Assembly (NCBI RefSeq): GCF_018861025.1
Contig: NZ_JAHKQH010000021.1
Coordinates: 1 to 64,000 of the forward strand
Direction: 5' to 3'
Source: Psychrosphaera sp. B3R10
Lineage (GTDB): Bacteria > Pseudomonadota > Gammaproteobacteria > Enterobacterales > Alteromonadaceae
DNA: 64,000 nucleotides
How positions within the stretch are numbered: the stretch's first letter is position 1; each line of letters opens with the position of its first letter. Both the position numbers and the translations under genes were made by a program. Below the pieces are notes generated by a model. That model did not search any database and was not told the origin of the DNA. It saw only the letters and a list, made by a program, of their open reading frames with translations. Of the stretch, positions 4,035 to 53,181 are shown one piece after another.

Positions 4035-4354
4035 GTCTATTAAATATCATCAATGAATAAGGAAGGGCAGTTCTAGCTCTCCATTTTGTGTTCCCCTTTG
4101 AACAGTAGTGTCTTCGAGTAGGATAGTTTGCCGTAACTATAGAAATAAAGATTCCATTAAAGCTTTCTTAATCAATTAAAAACATGTGCGCATGCCTTAA
4201 TCAAATTTAGTCACTTTTATGTATCTTTACGAATGACGAGGGATCTGAGCTGAAAGTTATAGCCTATAAAATAAACTTGCTCTGCCTTACTGTATTTTAT
4301 TATTCATTAATATATACTCGTTAATTGTCAACAATAAACAATAGATGCGAATCC
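4035..4354. other. Intergenic region after the cassette array
   Basis: About 320 AT-rich bases with no convincing gene, repeat or attC right half. The last 150 bases presumably hold the sulfatase promoter, but I cannot point to a clear -35/-10 pair. Confidence 0.5.
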
Positions 4355-6064
4355 ATGAAAAAATTATTAACTCTTTGGTTTGTTATGCTCACCATTTTGC
4401 TTTCGTTTAGTAGTTATTCAGAAGATAAACGACCTAACATTATCGTTATTCTTTCAGATGACTCTGGTTATACCGATTTAGGAAGTTTTGGTGGTGAAAT
4501 TGAAACCCCTAATATTGATCAACTAGCTAATGATGGGGTCCGTTTTAGTAACTTTTATAGTAATGCCAGATGTAGTCCAACACGTGCAACTTTATTAACT
4601 GGGGTAGATGCTGCACACGTTGGTTTTGGTGGCGGCGTTGTTGGTGATTGGGTGCGTGAATTACCTTTTGAAGCTCACCGTGGGCGATTGTCTTATGAGC
4701 AACCGTTAATTTCCGAATTACTTGGAAGTAATGGTTATCAAACAATGATGGTTGGTAAATGGCATTTAGGTGGAAGCTATATTAAAGAGAACCCGAAAGA
4801 AATGTCACCAGAATGGATAGCGTCGCATTCAGGTATGGAACTGACCCAATATGAAATGGACCAAGATTACCTTAGTTTGCCCCCTCAGCGAGGTTTTCAG
4901 AAAAGCTTAGTTTTCATTGGAGCACAAGGAAATCTTTTTGCGACTCCGGAAGATGAACATCAATATTATGATGGGAATGATAGGGCAACGTTAAAATACG
5001 ATTATAATTATAATATGCACTGCTATGCTGACACACCTTTTCTCAAAAAGCATTATGGTGCTTGTCATGGAAAATCGGGGAAAGCCTTTTACTCAACCGA
5101 CGGCATTACAGACCGAGCCGTTGATTTGATAGAAGAAGCTACAGATCAAACAGATCCATTTTTTATGTATGTTGCTTACCGAGCGCCACATAAACCACTG
5201 CAGGCTCCAGAAGAACTCGTTCAAAAATATCTAAAACGATATACAGATCTACAAAAAGTAGCTGATGATCGCCATAAGGGATTGGTTTCTGCAGGCTTGT
5301 TTCCGCAAAATGGTGATATCGCTAATAATAACTTTTTATGGACAAAGCAAGATAAAGAAAAAATTGAGAAATTCCGTCTACAAGCTGCTGTACACGCTGC
5401 TATGGTAGAGAAGTTAGATGAAAATGTAGGTAAGCTGATACAAAGCCTAAAAGATAATGGCGAGTATGAAAATACGCTTATTTTGTACTTTTCAGATAAT
5501 GGTGCGGCATCTCATATTGGTGATCTAATGAATTCACCTTATAAAGGGGTTAAAGCCTTGCTTTGGGAAGGTGGTGCACGAACGCATGCTATTGCGAGTT
5601 GGCCTGACGTAATAAAGCCGGGAACGATTTCAGATGATTTAGTGTGGGTTGGTGACATAACTCCTACCTTACTAGAGATCACTAACACCGAATTTCCTGA
5701 AAAGTTTCATGGATCAGTACCAAGAAAACCAGACGGGCGGAGTGTTTTGGCGAGTCTTAAAGGCAAAAAAATGTTACCGCCTGAAGCTATTTTTTTCAAC
5801 GATAAAGGACAGCAAAGCGTCATTTATCAAGGTCGATGGAAGCTTTTAATTGAGGCTGGTTGGTATCTACAAACACTTGCGAAACCAGGGATCACATACG
5901 AACTTTATGATTTAAACAACGATCCGGGTGAAACTAATAATCTGGCAAAATTAAAACCAGACCTGGTAAAAAAACTAACAGCTATGTGTGACAAATGGAA
6001 AAAAGAGAACAAAATAGTTGATTATGAAAAGATAATTAAAATAAAACCACAAGACCCTTATTAA
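4355..6064 (+). CDS. Secreted arylsulfatase (S1 family, FGly-dependent)
   Basis: The 569-residue protein starts best at ATG 4355, giving a signal peptide (MKKLLTLWFVMLTILLSF) cleaved near SYSEDKRPN; a TTG start 30 bases upstream would spoil it. The mature N-terminus NIIVILSDDSGYTDLG holds the metal-binding Asp pair. CSPTRATLLTG is the sulfatase signature, with Cys73 expected to be matured to formylglycine. GKWHLGG and a later YFSDNGAASHIG supply further active-site residues. Length is typical. It should hydrolyse sulfate esters in the periplasm. It faces away from the DUF1592/FucP operon, yet with it suggests sulfated, perhaps fucosylated, glycan use. An FGly-generating or anaerobic maturase gene is not in the window. 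Confidence 0.93.
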   Translation: MKKLLTLWFVMLTILLSFSSYSEDKRPNIIVILSDDSGYTDLGSFGGEIETPNIDQLANDGVRFSNFYSNARCSPTRATLLTGVDAAHVGFGGGVVGDWVRELPFEAHRGRLSYEQPLISELLGSNGYQTMMVGKWHLGGSYIKENPKEMSPEWIASHSGMELTQYEMDQDYLSLPPQRGFQKSLVFIGAQGNLFATPEDEHQYYDGNDRATLKYDYNYNMHCYADTPFLKKHYGACHGKSGKAFYSTDGITDRAVDLIEEATDQTDPFFMYVAYRAPHKPLQAPEELVQKYLKRYTDLQKVADDRHKGLVSAGLFPQNGDIANNNFLWTKQDKEKIEKFRLQAAVHAAMVEKLDENVGKLIQSLKDNGEYENTLILYFSDNGAASHIGDLMNSPYKGVKALLWEGGARTHAIASWPDVIKPGTISDDLVWVGDITPTLLEITNTEFPEKFHGSVPRKPDGRSVLASLKGKKMLPPEAIFFNDKGQQSVIYQGRWKLLIEAGWYLQTLAKPGITYELYDLNNDPGETNNLAKLKPDLVKKLTAMCDKWKKENKIVDYEKIIKIKPQDPY

Positions 6065-7054: not shown

Positions 7055-8800
7055 TTAGTCAATTAAGGCCAAACGCTTAATGTAGTTGTCATCTAAAGCT
7101 TGGCTAAATATCATTATTTCCGCAATGCTGCCATTTAAGTTTCTTAATGGCTTTTGAAGCCGTTTGGGGTCCCAGTTACCTATGGAAGCCGGGCCAATCA
7201 ACCAATAATCTGAAGGTTTCATTAATTTAGTTTGTTTGACTTTTTCGCCATTGACAAATAATGAGACGGTTTTAAGTTCACTGTCAACTCGCGTTGCCAA
7301 ATGATACCAAGTGCCCGAATCTGAAACAGAAAAAAATGGTTCATAAGTATAGTTTTTGGGGCCAAGTTCGCGTGAAAATAAACCTAAAACTATAGTGCCA
7401 ATCCCTGCATTTATACCTTGGGCACGATAGTTAGAAATCTGCCAATGTATATCACCGGGTTTATATCCATCGGTTAATAACAGAGAATTATATCTTCTAT
7501 CTAAACTGTCTATTTTAACCCATGTTGCCATGGTAAAACTGGTTAACTTCTCCTCAATATCAACACGAACGCGGTCACTTGCTCGTTTAAATTTTAACGC
7601 GTGTTTGCCTTGCCATGGACCTTGGCTCCAACGAGCACCAACGATAGCGCCGTGATGTTTATCGCCATGGCTGGATAAATTAGTGAGAATTCTAGGCTTT
7701 TTAGCACTTGGTTCAAAGTCGTAATACGTCACCAAATTGGAGTCAGCGAGAACCTCAGCTTTAACTGAAAGCCATTTTTGATGCTGTTGGCTTATTGCTG
7801 TGCCAGTGAGATCGTCGATAGTATTAAACTCGGCAAATTTGGCTTTTGAGGCGATATCATCGCGCCATTCAGAACGGGTCTCCCCAGAAAAATTTATTGC
7901 TTGTCCTTTTTCAATTAATTGTTGATAGCCTAAGTCATTTCTAACTTCAACTAAGCCTTCAAAAACATGGACTTGAGATAAGCCATCCTTTGTTACTTCA
8001 ACCCCGATTTCGGTCCCTAAGTCTATGATTTCGCTATTAGGTGTATCGATAGTAAAACCGATGGCCACTTTGGGAACATCGGTCATTACTTTGCCACTTA
8101 TTAATTCTACTCGTTCTTCATTAATAATATTGATGGCGGCCGGGCCGGAAATTTTTAGCTGTGCGCCGCGGTAAAATTCGAGCTCAAGAAAGCCCTCTGA
8201 TAAATGTAATTGACCGGGTTTTACAGAGTCGCCAATTTTAAATATGGCGTTTTCGTGCAAGCCAATGGCATTGGCGATAACCGCAACGCCCAGATCTTGA
8301 TATTCGTATTGAGGTTTGGCTTTATGCTCTGTTGGCTCTGATAATTGTGTGGTTAACTGAGTGGCCTCAGCGTGGTTGGATTTGTCGTGATTAGGCTCGG
8401 CCGTTAAAAAATGAAATGACAACAACGCACATGCCGCTGTGCTTAAGGCGGTTAGTAACCAAGGAAAATAGCCTCGAACAATATTGTCATCGGCTGGCCT
8501 TTTATCAAATTGATTGTTGGTAATTGCTGAAATAATGTCTGACTCAAAACGTTTATTGGTCTTATTTTCAAAAGCAGTAGTAACCGTTTGGTTCACAAAA
8601 TTATCGAGTTGGTCGGTCGCTTCAAATCGTTGTCGAATTAAATTATCAATAGTGAGTTGTTCACTGAGTTGATTTTTTAATTCGGGATTATGTTCGGCCA
8701 ATGCGATAAGCGCGTCAAACTCGTGATCAGCTAGCTTGTTATCTAAAAGTAGTGCAAGCAATGCTTCAAACTGTTTTTTATGCTCCATGTTATTGTTCAT
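7055..8800 (-). CDS. Membrane anti-sigma-like protein with FecR and LamG domains
   Basis: The 581-residue protein has three parts. Residues 1-110 are cytoplasmic and helical (KKQFEALLALLLDNKLADHEFDAL), like anti-sigma N-termini. A single span follows at about 115-137 (PWLLTALSTAACALLSFHFL). The periplasmic part holds a FecR-like domain (about 170-310, with DSVKPGQLHLSEGFLELEF and DTPNSEIIDLGTEIGVEVT). A C-terminal LamG/concanavalin-like jelly roll spans about 375-575 (TMATWVKIDSL, GTWYHLATRVD, LNGSIAEIMIFSQAL). The start overlaps the end of the sigma gene by 11 bases, so the two are coupled. By analogy with FecR-type regulators it should hold or activate the sigma factor in response to a periplasmic ligand. 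The lectin-like domain as glycan sensor is inference. Confidence 0.8.
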   Translation of the reverse strand: MNNNMEHKKQFEALLALLLDNKLADHEFDALIALAEHNPELKNQLSEQLTIDNLIRQRFEATDQLDNFVNQTVTTAFENKTNKRFESDIISAITNNQFDKRPADDNIVRGYFPWLLTALSTAACALLSFHFLTAEPNHDKSNHAEATQLTTQLSEPTEHKAKPQYEYQDLGVAVIANAIGLHENAIFKIGDSVKPGQLHLSEGFLELEFYRGAQLKISGPAAINIINEERVELISGKVMTDVPKVAIGFTIDTPNSEIIDLGTEIGVEVTKDGLSQVHVFEGLVEVRNDLGYQQLIEKGQAINFSGETRSEWRDDIASKAKFAEFNTIDDLTGTAISQQHQKWLSVKAEVLADSNLVTYYDFEPSAKKPRILTNLSSHGDKHHGAIVGARWSQGPWQGKHALKFKRASDRVRVDIEEKLTSFTMATWVKIDSLDRRYNSLLLTDGYKPGDIHWQISNYRAQGINAGIGTIVLGLFSRELGPKNYTYEPFFSVSDSGTWYHLATRVDSELKTVSLFVNGEKVKQTKLMKPSDYWLIGPASIGNWDPKRLQKPLRNLNGSIAEIMIFSQALDDNYIKRLALID

Positions 8801-9314
8801 AACTCAACCTAAAATCTAGACATTGTTTCAATTTAGTTCGGATCCTCATCAGCGATAATCGAATGGCGGTTGGGGTCATTGCCATTTGCTCGGCAATGAC
8901 CTGAGTGTCGTCTTCCATATGATATTTACGACCAATAAGTTCTTTACTTTTTAATGGTAGCGCATTGATACATTCTTTTAATGCATTAACCTCTTGATGC
9001 TCACCAAAAGTAACTTCATAACTTTGTTCAAACGAGTCAATTAGAAACAGGGTTAGTTTGTCGTTCATTATTCGGTTATGCCGAGCATGTTTACGAGTTT
9101 CATTCCTAACCAAATTTCGAGCAATACCTTTTAACCAATGACCAAAATCTAAACTTTGATCAAACTTTTCCAACTCTTTGTATGCAACGATAAAGGTTTC
9201 TTGGGCAATATCATCTACAGCGTGTGAAAATACTCCAAGTCCACGAATATAGCTCCTGAGAGTCGCTTGATATTGCCGAATAAACGATGTAAATAATTGA
9301 TGTTCTTTAGTCAT
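8790..9314 (-). CDS. ECF-type RNA polymerase sigma factor
   Basis: The 174-residue protein carries sigma region 2 (DDIAQETFIVAYKELEKFD ... FGHWLKGIARNLVRNETRK) and region 4 (LPLKSKELIGRKYHMEDD, then a helix-turn-helix with MTPTAIRLSLMRIRTKLKQCL). It lacks other domains, as expected for ECF factors, and resembles the Rhodopirellula/Verrucomicrobium-type subgroup. The start is ATG 9314, or GTG two codons earlier. It is fourth in a five-gene minus-strand operon and overlaps its presumed membrane partner. It probably drives this operon and perhaps the sulfatase; no target promoter could be recognised. Confidence 0.9.
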   Translation of the reverse strand: MTKEHQLFTSFIRQYQATLRSYIRGLGVFSHAVDDIAQETFIVAYKELEKFDQSLDFGHWLKGIARNLVRNETRKHARHNRIMNDKLTLFLIDSFEQSYEVTFGEHQEVNALKECINALPLKSKELIGRKYHMEDDTQVIAEQMAMTPTAIRLSLMRIRTKLKQCLDFRLSYEQ

Positions 9315-9352
9315 GTCCACATCAGCTATTGACGTTGTTGATGCCAGTCGGA

Positions 9353-10702
9353 TTAGTCATTAACATAACCTTCGGCTTGCTCTTGTTTACGGGCAAATAA
9401 ACTAAAGACTAAAACGACCGCAAAACAGAATAACGGTAGCAAATAGCTAAGATTTACATTGGCGGTTTGATCAATGATACGACCTTGAATAGGTACAATT
9501 ATCGCGCCACCTAAAATGGCCATAATAATAAATGAGCCACCAAGTTTTCGGTCCTCGCCAACGCCAGTTAACCCTAAACCGTAAATAGTTGGGAACATTA
9601 ATGACATACAAGAAAAACAAGCTAACAAGGCATAAGTACCAATATTACCGCCGACAAAAACGGCAATAGAAATTAACACGATTGCTAAACTTGCCATTAT
9701 TGTTAGAAGACGAGCTGGGTGAATATAACTCATTAAAAAAGTACAGATAAAACGAAAACAAGTATAAACACACAGGCCATAAAAGACATAGTCTCCTGCT
9801 TCAGCTTCGTTTGTGATGCCCGATAGGTTGTCCATGATATACCGTATGGCATACGTCCATATTCCAACTTGGCAACCCACATAGAAAAACTGCGCAATAA
9901 CCGCAAACTTCCATTTACTATTTTTCTTTAATCTGCCAAACGAAGCTTTTAAATTTCCAAATTTGTCGTCTGACTTACCAGACGGAAAGCGAGTGAAAAA
10001 GATAAATGCGGCCAATGTTAATGCGACAAGAGCGACGATTACGTAAGCCGAGACAACATTACCTAATTCTTGAGCTTGCATAGTATTGAGTTGCTCTGGC
10101 GACAAGGCTGCTCGTTCAGTTTCATTTGCACTATTTAAGCCTTTTAATATTACTTCCTTACCTAAAAATACGCCCATTAACACACCAATTGGATTGAACG
10201 ATTGCGCAAGGTTAATCCGTTGAGTTGCGGTTTTTTCTGGCCCCATAGACATAATGTATGGCGCAGCAACTGTTTCTAAGATGGCGCAACCAGAGGCAAA
10301 TACATAAAAGGCAAATAGGAAAAATTCAAAACTCATGGCCTGGCTTGCTGGATAACATAAAAAAGCACCAATGGCGTAAATTGTTAATCCAGTTAATACA
10401 CCGTTTTTGTAGCTGTACTTTTGGATCAAATAAGCCGCGGGTAATGCCATGCAAAAATAAGCACCATAAAAGGCAGATTGGATAAATGAAGATTGAAACA
10501 AGGTCATACTAAGTACTTTCTGAAATGCAGGTACGAGCAAGTCGGTCATGTTGTTTGCCGCGCCCCATAGGGCAAAACAGGCAGTAATCAGTATAAAGGG
10601 CAATAATAAGCCTTTTGAAATAATCTTATTAGCATCTTTTGACGCGTCTGTTTGGGCTGTTCGCCTGATTGGGGCCGCCTCGATTGTTTGATTAACTTCC
10701 AT
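9353..10702 (-). CDS. fucP: MFS sugar permease, L-fucose:H+ symporter (FucP) family
   Basis: The 449-residue protein has about 12 hydrophobic spans. Span 1 carries ITACFALWGAANNMTDLLVP, matching the FucP start with its acidic residue after NNMT, and span 4 has ILETVAAPYIM with the membrane Glu used for proton coupling in E. coli FucP. ATG 10702 lies 46 bases after the DUF1552 stop. The protein should import L-fucose or a related sugar by proton symport. Its place in an operon with DUF1592/DUF1552 genes is the best hint that the operon serves a fucose-containing glycan. No fucose isomerase or kinase is in the window. Confidence 0.85.
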   Translation of the reverse strand: MEVNQTIEAAPIRRTAQTDASKDANKIISKGLLLPFILITACFALWGAANNMTDLLVPAFQKVLSMTLFQSSFIQSAFYGAYFCMALPAAYLIQKYSYKNGVLTGLTIYAIGAFLCYPASQAMSFEFFLFAFYVFASGCAILETVAAPYIMSMGPEKTATQRINLAQSFNPIGVLMGVFLGKEVILKGLNSANETERAALSPEQLNTMQAQELGNVVSAYVIVALVALTLAAFIFFTRFPSGKSDDKFGNLKASFGRLKKNSKWKFAVIAQFFYVGCQVGIWTYAIRYIMDNLSGITNEAEAGDYVFYGLCVYTCFRFICTFLMSYIHPARLLTIMASLAIVLISIAVFVGGNIGTYALLACFSCMSLMFPTIYGLGLTGVGEDRKLGGSFIIMAILGGAIIVPIQGRIIDQTANVNLSYLLPLFCFAVVLVFSLFARKQEQAEGYVND

Positions 10703-10748
10703 TATGTTCTCATCTTTTCGTTATTATAATTAATATGAGTAGTTTGAA

Positions 10749-12104
10749 TTACCCTGTAAATAGCGGACTAAACCCCGCCAAATGTTCATTACTATCTCCA
10801 AATTGACTTGTAGGTACACCACCGGCTTGAAGCATTTTTAGAAATAAATTAGACATTGGGATGTCTTCGGAGAACTTGTGATAGCGACCATGTTTAAGTC
10901 CCATGTTTTTACCGCCAGCTAAAATAAGTGGGCAATTTCGAGCGTTATGGGTGTTACTGCATGCACTGCCATAAAGTATTTGCGTGTTGTCTAATAGCGA
11001 TCCGAATTGGTCGGTCGTATTTTTCATTCGGTCAATAAAATAACTAAAATGGCTTGCAAGCCATTGGTCATATTTACCCCAATCTTGCCAATGTCCGGTT
11101 GTTTTATCATGGGTAATTGCATGGTGGCCTTTTTTGAGGCCTAGTTGAATTTTAGGGTATGCATCTCCAAGTCCCATGCCGTCTTCCCGGGCAATCATGT
11201 ATGAAGCCACTTCCGTTAGGTCGAGTTGAAATGCCAAGACAATAAGGTCGTACATAGTGCGGATATAGGCTTGTGGGTCTATTTTAGCATCTACTGCAAG
11301 GTCAATATGATCCGCATTAAAGGCCCCTAACGGGATGTCTAACCATGCTTCATTGCGCTTAATCTGTTCTTCTAGATCATTTAACGACGCTAAGTGCTCA
11401 GAAATTTTATTTCTATCTGCAACGCCCAAACGTTTTTGCAATCGTTTAGCGTCTTCGAGTAACAAGTCGACTACCTTTTTGTCTCGATGCAAACTTTTCT
11501 TGCGTTCGACAGATGTGTTTTGGCCGTCTGGGGCAAAATAACGCTCAAAAATTTGTCTATGGCTATGCTCAGATGGCAAGGCTTTACCCTGATGATTAAA
11601 CGATAAGGTTGAAGCTCGTGACTTAAACCCAACACCGCCGTCGGCGGAAAGGATCAATGACGGGTATCGGGTATTGTGTTTTTTAATTGCAGCAGCGTAT
11701 TGGTCTACAGAAATACTATTTTTGTAATCGCCACGGAGATCCCCAGCTGTTAAGAAACTATCACCGGCGATATGTCCAAGTAATTCTCTCGATTTTGGGT
11801 GGCTTAAACCACCTATAATTGAAAGGTCTTGTCTGTGCGGGTTGAGTGAAGACAATACGTTGGTGAATTCATAATTGTCGCCTTCGCCAGAAGGAAACCA
11901 GTTCCATTGTTTATATTCGGAGTCCAAGCCAGGCAAACTAACACCATTAGGAACATACAGATAACACATGCGTTTAGGGGCGGTGAGTCGACTACCAAGT
12001 TGTTTAGTTTCCGCCATACATTCTAAGTATGGCAAGCTTGCCGCCACGCCAATACCTTTGATGAAACTGCGGCGATCTAATTTAAACCCTTTAATGTAAT
12101 TCAT
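10749..12104 (-). CDS. DUF1552 protein with Tat signal
   Basis: The 451-residue protein begins with a twin-arginine signal (LDRRSFIKGIGVAASLPYLE), so it is probably folded in the cytoplasm and exported by Tat. The rest matches DUF1552: RMCYLYVPNGVS near the start, HIAGDSFLTAG, SVDQYAAA, NDLEEQIKRNEAWL, and DNTQILYGSACSNTHNARNCPLIL near the end. The family is abundant in Planctomycetes and always tied to DUF1592/DUF1588 genes; its chemistry is unproven. Its ATG overlaps the stop of the upstream gene (ATGA), indicating coupled translation and joint function. Confidence 0.92.
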   Translation of the reverse strand: MNYIKGFKLDRRSFIKGIGVAASLPYLECMAETKQLGSRLTAPKRMCYLYVPNGVSLPGLDSEYKQWNWFPSGEGDNYEFTNVLSSLNPHRQDLSIIGGLSHPKSRELLGHIAGDSFLTAGDLRGDYKNSISVDQYAAAIKKHNTRYPSLILSADGGVGFKSRASTLSFNHQGKALPSEHSHRQIFERYFAPDGQNTSVERKKSLHRDKKVVDLLLEDAKRLQKRLGVADRNKISEHLASLNDLEEQIKRNEAWLDIPLGAFNADHIDLAVDAKIDPQAYIRTMYDLIVLAFQLDLTEVASYMIAREDGMGLGDAYPKIQLGLKKGHHAITHDKTTGHWQDWGKYDQWLASHFSYFIDRMKNTTDQFGSLLDNTQILYGSACSNTHNARNCPLILAGGKNMGLKHGRYHKFSEDIPMSNLFLKMLQAGGVPTSQFGDSNEHLAGFSPLFTG

Positions 12105-15100
12105 ATCTTCTCCTTTAACTTGGGCGCTGGTTTATCTGTTTGTGCAGAAGGTGCTCTAACAAATGCCGGGCTTCTTATTATTGATGTAATTATGCTTTGC
12201 ATTTGGTACTGGTTGTTTTTAACTTCGGTTAATATGGCATTTAACGCGTCTTCATCATGAAAACTGACTTCTTTGGCAAGGGCATAGGCGTATAGATGTT
12301 TGATGAGCGATAAGACCACCTTGTCTTTCTGCTCGGTCACAAGGTACTGCTTAATTTCTGCTGTACCTTTGATTTTTGTGCCGTCTGGTAAAACGACAGA
12401 ATCATCAATTTCGCCACCTTTATAAGATGCACGAAGGCGACCAACCGCATCGTATTTTTCAAATACAACACCAAAGGGATCGATTTTAGCGTGGCAGTCT
12501 CGGCAGGAGTCTTTGTCTCTATGCAACTCTAATTGTTGTTTTAATGTTAAGTTTTCGAATCCAGGGGTGTCGGGATCAAGCTCTGGAACATTAGGAGGTG
12601 GCGGAGGTGGAGAATCCCCTAAGATCTTTTCTTTTAACCATACAGCTCGTTTAACAGGGTGGCTATGTACGCCGTCGGCATGGCCTGTTAGGAAAGTCCC
12701 TTGGGATAATAAACCGCCTCGAGCATTATCTTCACCTAAAAGTACTTTGACAAACTCACTGCCTCTGACTTCTTCAATGCCATAAAACTCCGCTAAATTT
12801 TGATTTAACATCGTAAAATCGGCTTTAACCAAATTTAATGCTGGTAGGTTTTCCTGCAGTAAAATTCGTATGAAGTGTTGGGTTTCTAGCGCCATATCTT
12901 GTTTAATAAAACGGGTGTAGTCGGGGTAGGTTGCAATATCAACAGATTGATTTTTTTGTCTGTCTAATCTTAGCCATTGACTCGTAAATACATCGATAAA
13001 ACGCATGACTTTGTCGTCGTTTATCATTCGTTTCATCTGTGTCTCTAGTTGACTCTCCAACTGGCCATTTTTGGCAAGCATCAACAATTCATTATCAGGT
13101 GGTGAATTCCAAAGGAAATAGGATAAACGGCTTGCTAATGCGTATTGGTGCATTTGTCGCGTTGTCTCATCACTTACTTTACTCGTCGTTATAACTGGTG
13201 CTGCTTGTGTTAAAGAGTCAGTGAGCTCTGCCTTCATTTGTTCATCATCAGCTTGATATATAAATAAGAAGTTTGTTGAACATAGAACCGCAACTAAGGT
13301 CTCTTTTATGCTTTCTTCAAAGGACGAGTAATCATCTTTTATGTTTTGCCAATAATTAAAATAAAACATCACTTCTTCTGCGGTAGCGGGTCGCCGATAT
13401 GCATTTGATACAAACTGTGTGATGATTTCATTGGCGTAGACTTCAGGATTGTTTTTGTTCGCCGATTCTATGAAGATCTTTTGATGTGCCTGCGTAGGCC
13501 ACTGTTTAAAATAGGGGGCTTCAAATTCGATGTAATCTATATGCAAAGGACTGCCAAATTCATCTGAACTTTTTACTAAATTATTATTCCAAAGTCCGAC
13601 TTTTAAGCTGCTACTGGTAATGTGATCTCCCTGTGTACCATGGAAAGGGATTGGCAGGTTTTCTAGGCGGCCATAAAAACTAAAGACTTTTTGGTTGCCT
13701 TCAATATTTTCTACGCGGACACTTTTAGTAAATGTTTTATAATCCATACCATCGTCGGTCCGGGTTCCGATATAAGGCATGATCTCTGGTACAGCGTCTT
13801 CAAACTGACTGTTGTCGAGATATTTCGCAGGTAGGTTTTTAACATGTTTATGGTTAGCCTTTAACTTTGTAAATACAAGGTGGCTGAAACCGGGAAAGTG
13901 TTTGTCACTGCTAAATGCTACTTTTAGTTTGTCACCTCGAACTAAGTAAGCGACCCCTATGCTGGAAACAACCAAATTGTTTGCCGTTGATTTATCAGTG
14001 GAGACAAGAGGTGTGTTAAAGCCAATATCTTTAGTAAATTGCAAATTAATATGACTGTTAACGCCTTTTGGCAATGCTGGGTGTACTAAATCTATTTGAA
14101 AATAGTCACCGCCACGCGCTGGTGCCTGAACCACAATTTCGCCAGACACGTTTTTACTATTTGGACTAGGTAATAATATTTGTGTCTCTTTAGTTGGTTT
14201 TTCAAAACCAATTGTCTTTTTTGCATTTTTAGCTAAAACAACAAATCGATTTACACCTTTAGCTGGCTTTTTAAGCGAGGTATTATTTTTATCTAGTTCA
14301 GCTAAAGGTTTGGCTTTGGTTAATGACTTCGCATTTAGCGCTAGTACGTCAAAAGCATATCCTTTGCTCGCCTTCACCCGTATTGCAAAATCGCCATTGC
14401 GTGGGTATTGATCTTTAATTTGCATCGATAAGTTAGGTGAAGGACCGTTCCAGGCGCCATATCTGCCAGCTTGAGTTGTTTCCTTGTGCGGCAACGCGGA
14501 ATAAAGAGTGATGCCATCTTCCATCATTTTGAATCGTCTAGGATTTGAACCTCGTAAACTCGCACTGAAATAAGGTTTTATTTGTTCTACTTGTTGGCCG
14601 TTTTTCGCCTGTCCATTTTCATCCAAAACTTCTACATAAAAATCATTTTTAGCAACGGCAACTTCCATATAACCTTTTGTCAAAGTATTAGGTTCGCCCT
14701 TACCGATACCTTTGCCAAAATGCATTCGGTAATGACTTACTGCTGGTTTGTCGCCCAAGTTAATTGCTTTATCTAATGCGCTTCTGGCAATTTTTTGGAA
14801 GGTTTCGAGATGCAAGTTTGATGTCGACAAAAGTTCGGCATTATTACTAAAACCAATTTCGGATAATGGGTCGTCAGGCAATTCACTCTCAAAGTTTACC
14901 GATACACCTAATAAGTCTTGTAAGGTATTTGAGTATTGCTGTTTAGTTAAGCGTTGCATTACCTGTTTGCTTGAGCCTTTTTTCATCTCTTTGGCGGTAG
15001 CAATACCATTTGTAAGCCAATCTACTACGGCACGTCTTTCTTCTGTACTGAGTTGGTGTTCCTTCGGCGGTGGCATTTCTCCAGAGTTAATCATATCTAA

Positions 15101-15874
15101 TATTGCATGCCACTGCGGGGCATCGTAACCGTTAACAAAGTCTGGATTTAGCGCTGAAATTTGTACTCCGCCTTTTTGTTTTTCGTCACCATGGCAGCTG
15201 TAGCAATATTTATCAAACAAGGGTTGGATGGTTTGCACAAACACTTCGTCGTTACTTTCCGATAAATCAAATGCCTTAGCGTCTTCAGGTAACCATGATT
15301 TAATGGCGTTAGGTGCAAACCGCGTTAAGTAGGTTTCGCCATGTACCAAATTGCCGCCAGCGTGGGCAGCAAAAAACAAAATAATGAGTAACGCGATAGA
15401 TGAGGTTGTATAGATAGAGGTTAACAATATTTGGTTTTTGGGGTTTTCACCAGTTTCACTGGTTTTACTAATCAACGTGTGCTTTAACGCTGTACAAATA
15501 AAGGTTATTAGAGCAACGCATATACCTGCGGTTAAATGGGTTTGAATTTGATCAAAACCAAACCCTTCATTGGAGGCTAGAGTCATACCTAACATAACAG
15601 TGACAAAAACCGAGAACGAAGCAAACCACCATATAAACAGAATAATTTCGCTAATTTGAGGCGGTGACTTCTTGCGTACAAAGAACTCTAGGATTGGAAT
15701 TAGCACGATAAGTGTAATGGGGAAGTGTAATACCAATACATGAAAACGTCCGAAGAATCGGGCGATACCTTGACCATCTATTTCATTAAATGGAATTGTA
15801 AGCGCGGAGGCGATTATTATTAATGCTAAACCAATTAAAATTGGAATTGGTTTAATCAATCTACGTAAATACAT
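12101..15874 (-). CDS. Membrane-anchored multidomain DUF1587/1595/1592/1588/1585 protein with two haem motifs
   Basis: The 1257-residue protein starts with about five membrane spans (residues 8-190). A planctomycete-type cytochrome c domain follows with haem site CYSCH (Cys224, Cys227, His228). Next come DUF1587 (MQRLTKQQYSNTLQDLLGV), a long beta-rich insert of about 450 residues, then DUF1595 (VSNAYRRPATAEEV), DUF1592 (ALASRLSYFLWNSPPDNELL), DUF1588 (HADGVHSHPVKRAVWLKEKI) and DUF1585 with a second motif CRDCH (Cys1124, Cys1127, His1128). This is the full planctomycete cassette in one polypeptide, first in a five-gene operon. Redox action on a carbohydrate or its breakdown products in the periplasm is plausible but unproven. 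Confidence 0.9.
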   Translation of the reverse strand: MYLRRLIKPIPILIGLALIIIASALTIPFNEIDGQGIARFFGRFHVLVLHFPITLIVLIPILEFFVRKKSPPQISEIILFIWWFASFSVFVTVMLGMTLASNEGFGFDQIQTHLTAGICVALITFICTALKHTLISKTSETGENPKNQILLTSIYTTSSIALLIILFFAAHAGGNLVHGETYLTRFAPNAIKSWLPEDAKAFDLSESNDEVFVQTIQPLFDKYCYSCHGDEKQKGGVQISALNPDFVNGYDAPQWHAILDMINSGEMPPPKEHQLSTEERRAVVDWLTNGIATAKEMKKGSSKQVMQRLTKQQYSNTLQDLLGVSVNFESELPDDPLSEIGFSNNAELLSTSNLHLETFQKIARSALDKAINLGDKPAVSHYRMHFGKGIGKGEPNTLTKGYMEVAVAKNDFYVEVLDENGQAKNGQQVEQIKPYFSASLRGSNPRRFKMMEDGITLYSALPHKETTQAGRYGAWNGPSPNLSMQIKDQYPRNGDFAIRVKASKGYAFDVLALNAKSLTKAKPLAELDKNNTSLKKPAKGVNRFVVLAKNAKKTIGFEKPTKETQILLPSPNSKNVSGEIVVQAPARGGDYFQIDLVHPALPKGVNSHINLQFTKDIGFNTPLVSTDKSTANNLVVSSIGVAYLVRGDKLKVAFSSDKHFPGFSHLVFTKLKANHKHVKNLPAKYLDNSQFEDAVPEIMPYIGTRTDDGMDYKTFTKSVRVENIEGNQKVFSFYGRLENLPIPFHGTQGDHITSSSLKVGLWNNNLVKSSDEFGSPLHIDYIEFEAPYFKQWPTQAHQKIFIESANKNNPEVYANEIITQFVSNAYRRPATAEEVMFYFNYWQNIKDDYSSFEESIKETLVAVLCSTNFLFIYQADDEQMKAELTDSLTQAAPVITTSKVSDETTRQMHQYALASRLSYFLWNSPPDNELLMLAKNGQLESQLETQMKRMINDDKVMRFIDVFTSQWLRLDRQKNQSVDIATYPDYTRFIKQDMALETQHFIRILLQENLPALNLVKADFTMLNQNLAEFYGIEEVRGSEFVKVLLGEDNARGGLLSQGTFLTGHADGVHSHPVKRAVWLKEKILGDSPPPPPPNVPELDPDTPGFENLTLKQQLELHRDKDSCRDCHAKIDPFGVVFEKYDAVGRLRASYKGGEIDDSVVLPDGTKIKGTAEIKQYLVTEQKDKVVLSLIKHLYAYALAKEVSFHDEDALNAILTEVKNNQYQMQSIITSIIRSPAFVRAPSAQTDKPAPKLKEKI

Positions 15875-16446
15875 CTTTTTCCCTAGTTGTCGCTGTTAAT
15901 CCGAAAACAAACAGCATTGAACATTATTATTATTTTGGTTGTTTTATATAATTGTCATGACTAAGCAAAGTGTTTCATTATTTATAATAAAATACTTATA
16001 ACAGGTTTGGGAGCCAAAAACCGTTTATTAACTTGGATAACAGATTCGATTTAGCAGAGTAAGAACGTAATCTTTTTTTGACACTTCTTATTTTTAGCGA
16101 TGTGGGGAGCGATAAATGACAGGGTTACGCTATTTAAGCTTTTATTCGGTGGTTACTTTCTTTGTCCATTTTATTGCTCTGCACCGCTAATATATTTGAT
16201 GTTTACATAGGCTAAAGCTAAAGGGGGGGAGGCCTTTCTGGACAACACTTTATCGAAGCCTGCTACAATAAAATTAATGATAGGTATTGCAAAATACGCA
16301 GGGTTGCTAGAGCGTTAATATTTGGTGTTAAGTCTTGGCTTAATCATTTACTATTTGCGCTAGGTCTAATTTTTAATACTAAAATGAATAACGGAAAAAC
16401 GCGCCTCGAATATGAGGTGTTCCTTCCCCCATAAAAGGTCAATGTT
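15875..16446. other. Divergent intergenic region
   Basis: About 570 AT-rich bases between the divergent DUF1592 operon and the gene at 16447. It must contain the operon promoter, probably read by the operon's own sigma factor. A TTGACA at 16077-16082 on the plus strand has no good -10 partner. No gene or repeat was seen. Confidence 0.5.
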
Positions 16447-23458: not shown

Positions 23459-26400
23459 CTATCTAAGTAGCCAGCTAAGTTGCAACTTTTGCCAAATTCC
23501 TTGCGGTGCAATAAGGGCTTTAATTGCGGTTTTACATTTGCGATGAAAGCCATCACATACGGTCATCCCCGCGACCACTTTATACCTATTTCTAAGTTCG
23601 TTAAGTTTGGGCTTTATTGCTAAAATGCTGTTGTGTTTTTCGCTTTTCGCTAAGTCAGACATAAGATTTAGCGCATCAAATATGTATTGTTCGGTGGCGA
23701 TAAGCTCTCTTTGGTCAATTAAATTAAGCTCTTCGGGGACAATTTGATTTGTTTGGATCCAGTTATCGGCATGACTCCACACTAACAAGTTATGCAAAGT
23801 GTGATCGGCATCTACTTGCAGTCCTTGATGAATAATTGGGCTGGCATCTTGGCCTCTGTCGAGCATTAATAAACAAACTGCATAATTGTAAAATCCTGCC
23901 ATTGGTAATTTTGATAGGTCGTCAATTCCATCAAATAAATGGATCACATTATAATAGTGACCCGCTTGAATATAGACATCCATTAGCCTCATGACTAACT
24001 GGTCATCTTGATGTAAACGAGACTTGTTATCTGCAATCATTTTGTCGTCTGGTATTTCACTTTTTTCATGTAGATAGTCGAGAATGCTTGAAAATGCGCC
24101 GGCCCAACTGGGTTGCGATTGAATGGCCTCGATTTGTACGAGTAACTTATTAACCGGTTTGCGTTTATTATGCAGAAGAAACTTATCTGCCCATAAACTC
24201 GATTGCATGCGGCCACAATTTTCAAGTTGCAGACTCAACAGTTCGATGAGTTTTTCAGATGGAACATGATTGTTTAAACTTTTATATGCATGGTGCAAGG
24301 TGCCGTATATATCGCAGTGGTTGCTTATTAGCAACGTAAAGGCGTCAAGAGCTTCATCAATTTTATGAAGTTGGGTCAATACATTTACTTTCCTTGCGAG
24401 GGCAAAGTTTACCAAGCTAACTTTTTCATATTCAACTAAGCATGTCAGGGCAGCGTCAAACTGTGCCAAGTCGACTAATCGGTCGACGTAAGTCAGCATG
24501 ATATATTCATCGCTCGGTGAAAGTTCATAAGCTCGTTTTAGACAATCCGTAGCTTCTTGTTTATCGCCGTAGGCTAAAATTTGTTCTCCTGCAACGCACA
24601 AAACGTCTGGGTCGTGTGGGTTTAGTGTAATGTGCCGTTGTGCAGCTTCAACCGCTCGTAATTTAGATTTATCGTCGTGTTCAATCAGTCGATCGAAAAT
24701 GCCATAGAGTTTTTGCCAAGCTTGAATTAACCCACTTTTATTAAACAATAATTGATAGAGTACTGTCGCGGCCTCATCGTCTCTACCTGTTTGAGATAAT
24801 AGTTCAGCTTTCGCAGTGGCTAATTCCACGGGCAATTGTTCTCCCCAGGGAGTTGAATTGAGTAGGTCTATCGCAGCGGTAAATTCACCTTGTCGTGTAT
24901 ATAATTGCGACAGTTGGGCGTAGCTGGACTCATCCATTGGATCGCATTGAATCGCCTGTTCAATGCAGCGCTTTTTAGTTTGTCTGTCATCGGCTAAAAA
25001 GGCTTTGAAACGCCATGTTGGTGCTAAATGTGGCTGATGAGTCGTGAGTTCATTTGCTAACTCGAATGCTTGCTCAGGCACCCCTAATTCGGCCGTTATT
25101 TCTTGAAGTTGCTCCCAGCCCCACGGGTAATCAATATTAAAACGAATGGCTTGTTTCAGATGAGTTAAGGCTTCTTGTTTTTTATTTAATTTTAATGCGT
25201 AATCAGCGTAAAAGCCATGCAGTATACCGTCAAGACTATTGTGACTTAAGCAATCCGCTATGGTTTGCAATGCTTGATTTAGGTTGCCTTGTTTTTCGTA
25301 TAGCTCCGATTGTTTTTTGGCAACTGTGTCCCAAGATGGATTTATCTTTAGTGCCTTTTTAGTGCTCTCTATCGCTGCTGAAATATCCCCAATGGCAAGC
25401 TCTATATCGGCTTGTTCACTGTACATTCTTGGAATTAGCGGAAACTTTTCCTGACCGGTGTTAAGGATCTCAATGGCTTTATCCATCTTATGAAACTGAC
25501 TGTAAAACTGCGCTGCGATGCAGTATGTAAACCACTCGTTGTGATAGCGAACTAACAACATGTCGACAAAATCTTGCAATTCACTTTCCGGCAGTAAGTG
25601 TTGTCCTTCATGCCAGTAATGCCAAATTCCACTGTCTATTGAATGTTGCTTTAAGAGCAATTGTTTAACAAAGGCGAGGGAGTTTTGCTTTTCTTCGCGA
25701 CTCGAAGTGGTTGCCGTGATCAGCCAAAGAGCGGCGCTATTATCAACATCGATGTTTAACGCTTGTTTTGCTAGCTGTGTTGCTTGTTCGAAGTCGTTAC
25801 AATAGTAATAACACTTAGCTAAAAACGCCGTTTGGAATGGTCCACAATTATGTCGTTGGTATGCTTCTTGTGCTTGTTTTAACGCTTCTGGATATTGATT
25901 TAATTGCAAATATGCATTGATTAACGTTTGATGCAAAAACCAATTGTCTGGTCGCAACGCTAACCCAGTGACTAGGTTATCAACAAGAAATTGAGGATCG
26001 TTATGCCAGTTGGCCGCATAGACATAAACAGATGAAATTTTAGGGTGTTGTTTAATGAGTGACTGTAACTCTAGATTGAGTTTTTCAGTTGCCCCAAATT
26101 TACTTAAACTCTGGAAATATAGGTTGGCAATGTCAGTGATAAAAGGGGCGTCAGAATATAACTGGTAATAACAGTTACAGGCTTGTTCCATCAATCCCTG
26201 TAATTCATTTAACCGGGCAGTTAATTTTACCCTTAGACGTTCGGATAGGACGTCTTTTTTACTTTCAATTAGTGCTTGTAAGGCTTCAATTTCTCCTACG
26301 TCGGCTAAGGCAAAGGCGAGTGTTGAAACCAAGTCACTGTCTTTTGGATGCATGGTTAACGCATTTTGCAGTACTTCAATTCCCTTGGCTTTTTGATTGA

Positions 26401-28504
26401 TAATGCAATAGGCGTGGTAAAGTGAAATTGCGGGTGAGGCCGAACGTTCTTGATACTTTTCTACGCGTCTTTGTAACCAAGAAAGGGCACTTTCACTTTC
26501 ACCTAAAATGTTGGCCATTTTAAAGTAGTTTTCTACATAAACCGCGTTAGTTTCGCTCATGCAGTGACTAATAAAGTAATATTCTTTGGCCTTTAAAAAC
26601 TCTTGAATTGCCCAATAATAATTGCCGATAGAGTAGTAAACCGAAGCGCTTCTGCATCCAATAGTTTTTAATCTTAATAAAAGTTTCTCTACTAATTTGG
26701 GGTTTTCTGAAGTGTCACATATTTCATTAAATAGGGTTTCTGTAAGGTCGAGATTGTGATTTTTGTCTAAATAATCACTAAGCCACTTTAACGCGCCTTT
26801 ACGGTCACCTAAGTCACGGATACAGAAATATTGTGAATTAAGTAATACGGTTTCATTTGGGGCTATGGCAAGTAATTTGTCGTTGGCGGATTGGATCAGT
26901 TTGGTATCGTTGAAAAAACACGCCAAATCGCGTTCCATAATTTGGGTCAAACGATGATCAGGCGCAATAGTTTTCATTTGCTCAAACACACTTGTCATTT
27001 TGTCAGCGTCTTGTACTTGCCTTGCGAGTTGATATTGATCTTGAATTGGGAATATGTGACGACAAGTTGTATCGATAAAATCTAATGTGTGACTGTTTTC
27101 TTTTGGCACAAAAGCCATGCAACGAGCGCCAAGAAACGATTCTTTTTCTATGGTTTCGTCTATCAACATTTCCTGCATCGCAGGCGAACTCGGATCCATG
27201 ATATACATGCTGCCGTGGGGCAAATTATAGCCGATTACGGCTTGCATATGAGAGCTAAAGCCCGATGTGGTGACTAAAGCAAAAGGAATGTTTTGATCAA
27301 TTAAGTTAATCAAAAGTGGCTTTGTTAATTCAAACTCTGCAAATGAAAAATCATGGTCTCTGAGCCATTGTCGTTCTTTGGTGTCTGGCGTGCCATCAAA
27401 ACAAATATCTTCAGCGATAAGCTCAGAGTCATATTGCTTGCCAAAAAAACTCGCAATCGCTGCCATTGTAGTGGGTGCGCAAGTCAGGTGTTTTTGTCGG
27501 TAAAAGGGCACATCGAGAATTTTTTTACCAGCACTGACGTGTTCATTGATGTTTTCGTTTTGGTCAGTGTTTTGGTTAGTTTTGGCTCCTAATGCCGTTT
27601 GTTTAAACGTGTCTATGTTGCGACAAACCGCTTGCCAGTAGTACTGTTTACTTTGCTTTAACACCTGTTGGCCTTGTTCAGTGTCACCTTTTGCGAGTAA
27701 ACACTGGCCATGTAATATTAAATAGTTGCGTTTGCTTTGACGGTCTTCTGCTATTTTTAGCGCATCATATTTTTGTAATGCGAGTTCACATTGTGGCCAA
27801 TTTAAAAGTTCGGCGTAACTTGTTGCACAGTCTAACCACATTGACGCTGATTGAAATTTTGGCAGTTCACGCCAATAAATGTCGATCGCAAATTCTAGGC
27901 CTTTAGCGTGCTGAGCTGAATTAAAATAGGCACGTAAAGTTGATACTTTAGGCTCGGATTCATATAGGGATTTAGCGACATTATAAGCTTGTTCAAATTG
28001 ATCCTGAGCAATGAGGTTTGAAATATGCAATATTTCAAACCAAGCCTTGTTATCGGTGACTTGCCGGCCTTTTTCTATTAGTTGTTCAGACTGTTCGTAG
28101 TTATGAAAAAGTCGTTGTAAAATGGCTTCAAATCCAATGATGTCATCTTCATCTTTGGGCTCGGTTATTTGGGATTTTGTCCGGTCAAAAAACTCTTTGG
28201 CTAATATGCAACCGTCTTTATTAAGTAAGTAGTACCAATGATCTTTAAGTTGTTCCGCTTTATCTGGAAATTGTCTATAGAGTTTTAGCGAGATGGCCTC
28301 AGCGTTTCTGTCCCCCCCTAAATGCGCATAAATGGCACTGGCAATTTTACGTTGCGCAATGAGTTGCCAACTGTCTATTGGCCCCCAGAGGTTTGTGCTA
28401 AACGTTAAGGCATCAGTGTAAAGACCTTGTTTCAATAACGCCTTAGTTTTTGTTACAGCAGTTTTTAATTGCTCATCTTCTTTTTCTACTGCAACTGTCG
28501 TCAT
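23459..28504 (-). CDS. Giant TPR protein with embedded C39-like peptidase domain
   Basis: The 1681-residue protein has no signal peptide or membrane span. It is built almost wholly of TPR-like helical repeats, with a C39 peptidase-like domain inserted at about residues 328-460. The domain opens LDVPFYRQKHLTCAPTTM with Cys342, has HMQAVIGYN with His419 and MDPSSP with Asp437, so the Cys-His-Asp triad and oxyanion Gln are present. C39 domains cleave double-glycine leaders or cross-linked peptides. Here there is no ABC transporter, so the role is open. It resembles large TPR/C39-like proteins of marine gammaproteobacteria of unknown role. Confidence 0.85.
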   Translation of the reverse strand: MTTVAVEKEDEQLKTAVTKTKALLKQGLYTDALTFSTNLWGPIDSWQLIAQRKIASAIYAHLGGDRNAEAISLKLYRQFPDKAEQLKDHWYYLLNKDGCILAKEFFDRTKSQITEPKDEDDIIGFEAILQRLFHNYEQSEQLIEKGRQVTDNKAWFEILHISNLIAQDQFEQAYNVAKSLYESEPKVSTLRAYFNSAQHAKGLEFAIDIYWRELPKFQSASMWLDCATSYAELLNWPQCELALQKYDALKIAEDRQSKRNYLILHGQCLLAKGDTEQGQQVLKQSKQYYWQAVCRNIDTFKQTALGAKTNQNTDQNENINEHVSAGKKILDVPFYRQKHLTCAPTTMAAIASFFGKQYDSELIAEDICFDGTPDTKERQWLRDHDFSFAEFELTKPLLINLIDQNIPFALVTTSGFSSHMQAVIGYNLPHGSMYIMDPSSPAMQEMLIDETIEKESFLGARCMAFVPKENSHTLDFIDTTCRHIFPIQDQYQLARQVQDADKMTSVFEQMKTIAPDHRLTQIMERDLACFFNDTKLIQSANDKLLAIAPNETVLLNSQYFCIRDLGDRKGALKWLSDYLDKNHNLDLTETLFNEICDTSENPKLVEKLLLRLKTIGCRSASVYYSIGNYYWAIQEFLKAKEYYFISHCMSETNAVYVENYFKMANILGESESALSWLQRRVEKYQERSASPAISLYHAYCIINQKAKGIEVLQNALTMHPKDSDLVSTLAFALADVGEIEALQALIESKKDVLSERLRVKLTARLNELQGLMEQACNCYYQLYSDAPFITDIANLYFQSLSKFGATEKLNLELQSLIKQHPKISSVYVYAANWHNDPQFLVDNLVTGLALRPDNWFLHQTLINAYLQLNQYPEALKQAQEAYQRHNCGPFQTAFLAKCYYYCNDFEQATQLAKQALNIDVDNSAALWLITATTSSREEKQNSLAFVKQLLLKQHSIDSGIWHYWHEGQHLLPESELQDFVDMLLVRYHNEWFTYCIAAQFYSQFHKMDKAIEILNTGQEKFPLIPRMYSEQADIELAIGDISAAIESTKKALKINPSWDTVAKKQSELYEKQGNLNQALQTIADCLSHNSLDGILHGFYADYALKLNKKQEALTHLKQAIRFNIDYPWGWEQLQEITAELGVPEQAFELANELTTHQPHLAPTWRFKAFLADDRQTKKRCIEQAIQCDPMDESSYAQLSQLYTRQGEFTAAIDLLNSTPWGEQLPVELATAKAELLSQTGRDDEAATVLYQLLFNKSGLIQAWQKLYGIFDRLIEHDDKSKLRAVEAAQRHITLNPHDPDVLCVAGEQILAYGDKQEATDCLKRAYELSPSDEYIMLTYVDRLVDLAQFDAALTCLVEYEKVSLVNFALARKVNVLTQLHKIDEALDAFTLLISNHCDIYGTLHHAYKSLNNHVPSEKLIELLSLQLENCGRMQSSLWADKFLLHNKRKPVNKLLVQIEAIQSQPSWAGAFSSILDYLHEKSEIPDDKMIADNKSRLHQDDQLVMRLMDVYIQAGHYYNVIHLFDGIDDLSKLPMAGFYNYAVCLLMLDRGQDASPIIHQGLQVDADHTLHNLLVWSHADNWIQTNQIVPEELNLIDQRELIATEQYIFDALNLMSDLAKSEKHNSILAIKPKLNELRNRYKVVAGMTVCDGFHRKCKTAIKALIAPQGIWQKLQLSWLLR

Positions 28505-52578: not shown

Positions 52579-53181
52579 TTAATTGGGCAATGCCAGATAC
52601 TGAGGTAATAATGGAGTGTCTTTTGGGACTAAAATCAGACGTCTAAAACCATAACTATTTTTATGTTGATATAATTCAGCATAATAAGCTTGATCAAAAC
52701 CGCGGTCATGTGGCATGTACCCTTCGGTTTTACCTAAGTGCCATTTTCCCCATGTTGCTATTTTATAGCCAGATTTTTTCATTATATTAGACAACAGCGT
52801 TTCGGATAAATTAAGAAAGTCGCGACCGCCGTGGACACCGGAAACCCCCGTTTTATAAAAATCTCTTCCCGTTAACAATGACGCTCGTGTAGTTGAACAT
52901 ACCGGTGTAACTGAAAAGTCGCTAAACTGTACCGATTGTTTGGCAAGTCTGTCTTGGTTGGGTGTATGGATTGAGTCATGATTGTGCAAGGACAAATCGT
53001 CATAACCCAAATCGTCCGCTGTAATTAGCAATATATTCGGTCTTTGTTCTGTTGCAAAAGCAGGTTGTAAACATAAAATAAAACAAGTCACTAATAACTG
53101 GACGAATAAGACGCCACAATAAGTTATTTTGCGCTTAACTGTGCTCAAAAAGCCAAACCGGCTAGTATTATCTAACTGCAT
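52579..53181 (-). pseudogene. Truncated sulfatase remnant in the mannan operon
   Basis: The frame from ATG 53181 (overlapping the isomerase end) encodes a signal peptide and the N-terminal sulfatase core: NILLITADDLGYDDL, CSTTRASLLTG with Cys95, and GKWHLGKTEGYMPHDRGFDQAYY. It stops at 52579 after a short unrelated-looking tail, about 200 residues against 450-550 for whole enzymes. The FGly motif reads CSTTR with Thr in place of the nearly invariant Pro. No remaining half is found before the mutase gene. It is almost certainly inactive and kept only as operon filler. Confidence 0.82.

Follow-up and report, generated by a model that had tools for sequence, protein, structure and literature searches.

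Some Verrucomicrobia carry large numbers of planctomycete-type cytochrome genes, about whose function nothing is known, and PSCyt genes with carbohydrate-binding module (CBM) domains, partner genes and nearby sulfatases have been described there (He et al, 2017, PMC5615132; this and the other sources are cited for their available portions). A related protein from Cellvibrio, Cbp2D, combines a CBM2, the CXXCH-bearing domain X183, DUF1587 and an X132 domain that also carries CXXCH (PMC8981238, PMC12542752), and a Cellvibrio CBM2-DUF1592 protein is listed in a lignocellulose community study (PMC6004670). Here, we analyzed a 64,000-nucleotide stretch (the window) from the 4.74 Mb genome of Psychrosphaera sp. 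B3R10, of the family Alteromonadaceae, in which five genes at 7055–15874 encode a large DUF1592-type protein (D1592), a DUF1552 protein (D1552), a FucP-type permease, an extracytoplasmic function (ECF) sigma factor and a FecR-LamG regulator. No description of this five-gene set was found in the openly licensed literature, nor any paper there that assigns a biochemical function to DUF1592 or DUF1552, in agreement with an earlier interpretation made from the DNA letters alone (the sequence-only reading), which had called both families biochemically uncharacterized. The cassette is real, conserved and probably self-regulated, and interpreting it in terms of redox chemistry and glycans is a reasonable hypothesis. 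Our tentative reading, which we would place a little short of even, is that the operon regulates itself, was probably acquired horizontally and serves both periplasmic redox handling and the import of a fucose-type sugar.

In view of the published PSCyt clusters and of Cbp2D, the cassette is a variant of the planctomycete cytochrome modules. It shares with PSCyt3-type clusters the PSCyt/PSD set, a partner gene of unknown family and, in some of them, CBMs and nearby sulfatases, but differs in its DUF2231-like domain, permease, ECF-FecR pair and gammaproteobacterial host, none of which is mentioned in the available portions of that report (PMC5615132). Cbp2D and the Teredinibacter proteins TERTU_2913 and TERTU_3803 are the nearest studied proteins found. 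Like these, D1592 has c-haem domains together with an X132-type CXXCH domain, and it shares DUF1587 and a CBM with Cbp2D (PMC8981238, PMC12542752, PMC10916295); judged by domain order, X132 would equal the DUF1592-DUF1588 part. Unlike D1592, the Cbp2D and TERTU proteins have signal peptides or occur in secretomes, and the portions available mention no DUF1552, permease or ECF partner. A third precedent is the RB10049/RB10051 pair (PSD1/PSCyt2) of Rhodopirellula baltica, in which an ECF factor is likewise suspected to control a planctomycete cytochrome gene, although the cytochrome there is of another PSCyt class and a FecR-LamG protein or permease is not stated in the portion available (PMC2754498).

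All five genes lie on the minus strand as one close-packed unit, and an open reading frame (ORF) check together with Pfam and NCBIfam scans bore out the cluster and its tight arrangement as given in the sequence-only reading. The D1592 ORF (12101–15874; 1257 aa) overlaps that of D1552 (10749–12104) by 4 bp, gaps of 46 bp and 32 bp flank the permease gene (9353–10702) on its D1552 and ECF sides, respectively, and the ECF gene (8790–9320) overlaps the FecR-LamG gene (7055–8800) by 11 bp. To this our analysis adds a DUF2231-like membrane domain, a CBM-like domain and a PSCyt1 haem domain, all in D1592, and a promoter-like element upstream. Two further proposals of the earlier reading were not supported. 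The sulfatase gene next door (4325–6064) is genuine (Pfam E 1e-52), but its strand is opposite to that of the five-gene unit, and sulfatase genes or fragments lie near 3 of 6 cassettes (in the fetched 17–20 kb or the window), which does not support it as part of the system. A full glycan utilization system is unsupported because Pfam and NCBIfam scans of the five genes revealed no glycoside hydrolase, TonB receptor or SusCD pair.

The cassette is conserved beyond this genome. A pattern-based scan of a species-genome collection, which finds close relatives only, yielded 63 confirmed D1592 loci among 72 candidates, and 46 of these (L013–L058) form the subfamily of the window's D1592, with members in the named strains Aliiglaciecola lipolytica (L013), Agaribacter marinus (L014) and Paraglaciecola algarum (L048). 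D1552 directly follows D1592 in all 40 subfamily loci with at least 1.5 kb of downstream sequence, and their ORFs, as called, overlap at 27 of the 41 loci measured. At least 1.7 kb more was available for 36 loci, and in 15 of these the third position is taken by a FucP-type gene, 3 from the window's family and 12 from Flavobacteriaceae (interrupted in L016). Starting from the FecR-LamG protein, a search of 395 genomes of the window's family, in which cassettes without this protein would be missed, found seven full-length relatives including the window's own, and the complete five-gene order in 5 of the 395, again including the window. The redox pair, permease and regulator genes therefore belong to one conserved cassette; the sequence-only reading had named uniqueness of the linkage to this genome as refuting, and this refutation did not occur. 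In a further relative (G390), the ECF-FecR pair is followed by a GH29 gene, with no D1592 nearby. PF07631 has a single match in the window's genome, making D1592 single-copy there, and matches in 8 of 295 genomes of the order; in the stretches fetched around the other seven genes, some of them on short contigs, no cassette permease, ECF or FecR gene was seen. Other DUF1592 genes in the order and in a 60-genome survey are 23–36% identical to D1592 over the best match. D1592 has no match in any of seven genomes of the same genus, which points to a patchy distribution and a probable horizontal acquisition of the cassette.

D1592 comprises, in order, a DUF2231-like domain, PSCyt1 (cytochrome CBB3), PSD3 (DUF1587), beta-sandwiches with a CBM-like domain, PSD5 (DUF1595), PSD4 (DUF1592), PSCyt3 (DUF1588) and PSD2 (DUF1585). 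PF07631, PF07627, PF07626, PF07624 and PF07637 all score above their curated cut-offs, which places the protein in the DUF1592/PSCyt3 family. Its two haem c motifs, CYSCH (residues 224–228; 15191–15205) and CRDCH within PSCyt3 (residues 1124–1128; 12491–12505), are invariant as CXXCH in 42 of 42 aligned sequences, so that the haem-binding character assigned to it earlier is upheld at the sequence level by two c-haem motifs and the PSCyt1 and PSCyt3 domains. Met267 is also invariant in this alignment and is a candidate axial ligand of the first c-haem. The N-terminal membrane domain (15275–15874) has five hydrophobic segments by hydropathy, and its histidines 45, 50, 113, 171 and 178 are kept in 95–98% of the 42 sequences. 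Its DUF2231 score is 21.5 bits in the window and 25.2 in L013 against a cut-off of 26.4, which 8 of 10 N-termini scanned exceed. In a predicted model of residues 200–1257 (pLDDT 81), a CBM35/CBM6-like sandwich at about residues 541–675 (13850–14254) aligns with CBM35 2w47 (VIA-align Z 12.3, 127 residues, 2.5 A) and sits within an apparent second beta-sandwich with CBM29/CBM22-like rows (Z about 9.5). The CBM rows of Foldseek have E 0.016–0.036; its top rows (SID-1 and others; TM 0.07–0.10) were rejected as noise. Compared with the sequences of solved structures, D1592 shows at best weak cytochrome c matches (E 0.005 or worse), besides hits attributed to chance.

D1552 is assigned to DUF1552 (PF07586) with 243.8 bits against a cut-off of 30 (E 4e-72). 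All 40 aligned sequences retain the twin-arginine (RR) pair of its signal, which confirms at the same level the Tat-type export signal noted before, and His328, His332 and His386 are likewise invariant across 40 sequences. No relatives among solved structures were found by sequence search. In its predicted model (pLDDT 83), D1552 has a fold of the alkaline phosphatase/sulfatase superfamily: it aligns with the sulfatase/NPP type (VIA-align Z 16.3, 244 residues, 3.8 A; Foldseek E 5e-6, TM only 0.34).

From these features we propose how the system works. The FecR regulator, through its LamG part, would sense a periplasmic glycan or sugar and release the ECF factor, which would read a TGAAACA-N14-GACAAT promoter and turn on the whole operon, including itself. 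D1592 would sit in the inner membrane with its CBM-like domain holding the sugar, and Tat-exported D1552 would be its partner; jointly they would oxidize a sugar or oligosaccharide, and the electrons would pass from the two c-haems via the histidine-rich membrane domain to the respiratory chain, while the permease would import the product or a companion sugar. We computed the order of the genes and how far it is conserved, the domains with their haem motifs and hydrophobic segments, the promoter-like element, the predicted folds and the separate permease lineages; from them we infer complex formation between D1592 and D1552, catalysis, the direction of the electrons, that the membrane domain holds haem b, and the identity of the sugar. 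A more far-reaching possibility, which we consider rather unlikely, is that the pair represents a new class of membrane-bound periplasmic sugar oxidoreductase coupled to the respiratory chain, in which a hydrolase-superfamily fold (D1552) has turned to redox work and is wired through two c-haems and a His-rich membrane domain; such an enzyme would have its own carbohydrate-binding domain and would have been paired more than once with fucose-family permeases. In this cassette, a pair of haem-related proteins that has received little study is coupled to a fucose-type importer and an apparent switch of its own, which opens a large uncharacterized family to testing. D1592 is single-copy in the window's genome, the cassette occurs in named strains, and it brings both a candidate promoter and a linked transporter, the latter restricting the possible substrates, so that the role of the cytochrome becomes directly testable.

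The electrons may instead run outward, with D1592 taking them from quinol and passing them to an oxidative glycan-cleaving partner, by analogy with what has been proposed for Cbp2D and lytic polysaccharide monooxygenases (LPMOs) of Cellvibrio. There, X183 of Cbp2D reduces LPMOs, and knock-outs of cbp2D or cbp2E slow growth on cellulose (PMC8981238, PMC12542752), whereas related X183 domains of Teredinibacter did not feed their LPMO (PMC10916295). In our set, a search limited to the AA10 family found an LPMO in 0 of 21 cassette- or pair-bearing genomes, so a partnership of D1592 with AA10 LPMOs was rejected, and we regard outward flow as improbable.

The proposed switch gained support. The ECF factor scores 131.1 bits against TIGR02989, a Rhodopirellula/Verrucomicrobium family (cut-off 124.55), and the one-pass membrane regulator has Pfam FecR (228–285) and Laminin_G_3 (420–574) domains and a hydrophobic segment at 115–133. 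Upstream of D1592, the heptamer TGAAACA is found in 6 of 6 cassettes, and TGAAACA-N14-GACA(A/T)T in 5 of 6, 75–106 nt before the D1592 start as called, in upstream regions that are otherwise just 32–48% alike; in the window, this candidate ECF promoter lies at 15951–15977 on the minus strand, 103 nt 5′ of D1592. None of 300 Markov controls had a bipartite element of this size in more than 3 of 6 sequences; the heptamer by itself is weaker, as some heptamer occurs in 6 of 6 in 4 of the 300. The bipartite element has one match in the window (0.02 expected) and two exact matches in the whole genome, of which the window's is the sole intergenic one and the other lies within a coding sequence, while the looser pattern TGAAAC-N13–17-GACA also matches at scattered further places. 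Conservation of the element, with no second exact intergenic match, strengthens the earlier idea of a self-contained switch and suggests that the operon is autoregulated, with no other target of this exact promoter form; we infer that the ECF factor reads it. A second ECF-FecR pair in the same genome (L121; G000:C44:63000-82900), whose ECF factor stays below the TIGR02989 cut-off with 107.9 bits, lies beside GH16, sodium symporter, GH43, FAD oxidoreductase, lactonase and agarase-CBM genes, and its context suggests that FecR-type regulators serve several glycan loci. The element is absent from the fetched stretches of both the C44 pair and the G390 sister pair, and thus is not general to this ECF type.

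The permease has 445 bits against TIGR00885 (fucP; cut-off 280) and stays below the cut-off of 427 of PRK10133 (NF007524), the second fucP equivalog model, with 344 bits. By sequence it matches the E. coli FucP structure 3o7q at E 7e-98 and keeps D46, E135, Q159 and N162, which we take to be the functionally key polar residues of that protein; unlike in E. coli FucP, Y365 is replaced by F, and the gene lies between the D1552 and ECF genes, not among fucose catabolic genes. A 51-row IQ-TREE phylogeny was built after removal of one far outlier and of eight rows that were duplicates or nearly so, including the sole close relative of L174. The cassette permeases of the window's family form one clade (100/99) and those of Flavobacteriaceae a separate one (100/100), which joins 18 permeases of the fucose-cluster type, as found on contig C18 of the window's genome (100/99; three neighbourhoods inspected: L131/L139, L144/L178 and L160/L179). 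A joint clade of the two cassette groups was rejected (approximately unbiased (AU) test p 0.003), in a tree that warns of long branches meeting.

The D1552 proteins beside both permease lineages belong to one subfamily (44-row branch, 100/99), in which the window-family cassettes are a clade (100/100). A mixed Cytophagales-type clade and rows from Planctomycetota, in none of which a permease was seen, are placed between these and the Flavobacteriaceae across a single weak branch (82/70); some of their contigs end early, and a locus was scored as lacking the permease when its contig stopped shortly after D1552. An apparent D1592-D1552 fusion in Planctomycetota locus L045 was rejected as out-of-frame read-through in a GC-rich genome, and the D1552 tree carried the out-of-frame stretch of this row. 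The D1552 proteins of L023 and L049, labelled Roseobacteraceae, group with Flammeovirgaceae and Cyclobacteriaceae, which may reflect a binning error or transfer. Since two permease lineages stand beside the same pair, the permease was recruited twice or exchanged; either way, these trees place the same transporter family, retained, beside the redox pair.

This placement bears on the view that D1592-D1552 serves respiration or stress in general, with only an incidental permease. In favour of this view, Bacteroidota loci L019 and L040 have a common upstream gene run, presumably Na+-NQR, whose last gene in L040 shows a Fer2-FAD-NAD layout, and downstream lies a gene that in L040 is ApbE. The Rhodopirellula ECF factor, up under three stresses and suspected to control the PSD1/PSCyt2 gene, and a DUF1552 gene in an overview table of the same study also speak for it (PMC2754498). 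Against it stands one transporter family placed third, on the same strand, from two lineages, and we consider such a module unlikely.

Returning to the redox and fucose-import reading, several observations weigh against it. D1552 shows a hydrolase-superfamily fold, and no sugar-oxidase catalytic centre was identified; its match to sulfatase profiles is weak and local (40 columns, hhalign probability 32%, E 0.0005), and within these columns the metal-binding Asp-Asn of sulfatases is not kept (SDN vs SAC). The Planctomycetota D1592 rows L052 and L055 align without the membrane domain, which is thus not essential to the family. The third gene is not a permease in 21 of 36 loci, and the G336 cassette, one of six in the window's family, lacks the permease. 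As to the sugar, a second fucP in the window's genome scores higher than the window permease (534 bits, contig C18) and lies in a likely L-fucose oxidative catabolic cluster, read by eye from gene starts (L139; G000:C18:34000-53900); the window permease is therefore a paralogue with an uncertain sugar substrate. The nearest non-cassette permeases by path have a PfkB-type kinase-like gene, so labelled by eye, adjacent in two of three cases inspected and about 5 kb away in the third.

The operon sugar may hence be other than fucose, for example fructose or another deoxyhexose, with FucP a mere family label. The separate fucP, the PfkB-linked relatives and the PRK10133 score favour this, as does the tree, where the window permease branches off from neither the PfkB-linked nor the fucose-type group but outside the two (97/92). 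D46, E135, Q159 and N162 are kept in the PfkB-linked group as well and do not discriminate, but N42 and M361 match E. coli FucP, where that group has A and L. GH29 also speaks for fucose: it is present in all 21 of the tested genomes that bear the pair or the cassette and, as alpha-L-fucosidase in the window's family, in 6 of 6 cassette genomes compared with 16 of 145 others, G390 included (Fisher p 5e-6, uncorrected for kinship or lifestyle), although the association may reflect just a polysaccharide-degrading lifestyle. We consider a non-fucose sugar a serious possibility, if a somewhat doubtful one. Fucose, in line with the fucosylated polysaccharide that the sequence-only reading thought possible, is plausible as the cassette sugar from the GH29 counts and from the GH29 gene after the G390 ECF-FecR pair, with its identity left unsettled by the better-scoring fucP.

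Beyond the five genes, some neighbourhoods count in favour of the redox and sugar-import reading. A propeller-like gene of 637–649 aa follows the permease in seven Flavobacteriaceae loci, directly in six and one gene on in L042, where a di-haem peroxidase gene lies between; the single one scanned (L018:16326-18254) narrowly exceeds the PQQ_2 cut-off. Downstream in L016 are genes for a sulfatase, a 3-keto-disaccharide hydrolase and a GFO/IDH protein. Elsewhere in the window, a short sulfatase ORF at 52579–53211, possibly a remnant, matches the 301-position profile only over roughly its first 135 positions, and a 1681-aa protein at 23459–28504 resembles, by eye, TPR repeats with a cysteine-peptidase-like segment. 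Finally, 39822–62984 is a mannan-type utilization region with GH26 carrying mannanase galactose-binding-like domains, an alpha-galactosidase, a CE2-like esterase, two GlcNAc-2-epimerase-family genes and GH130.

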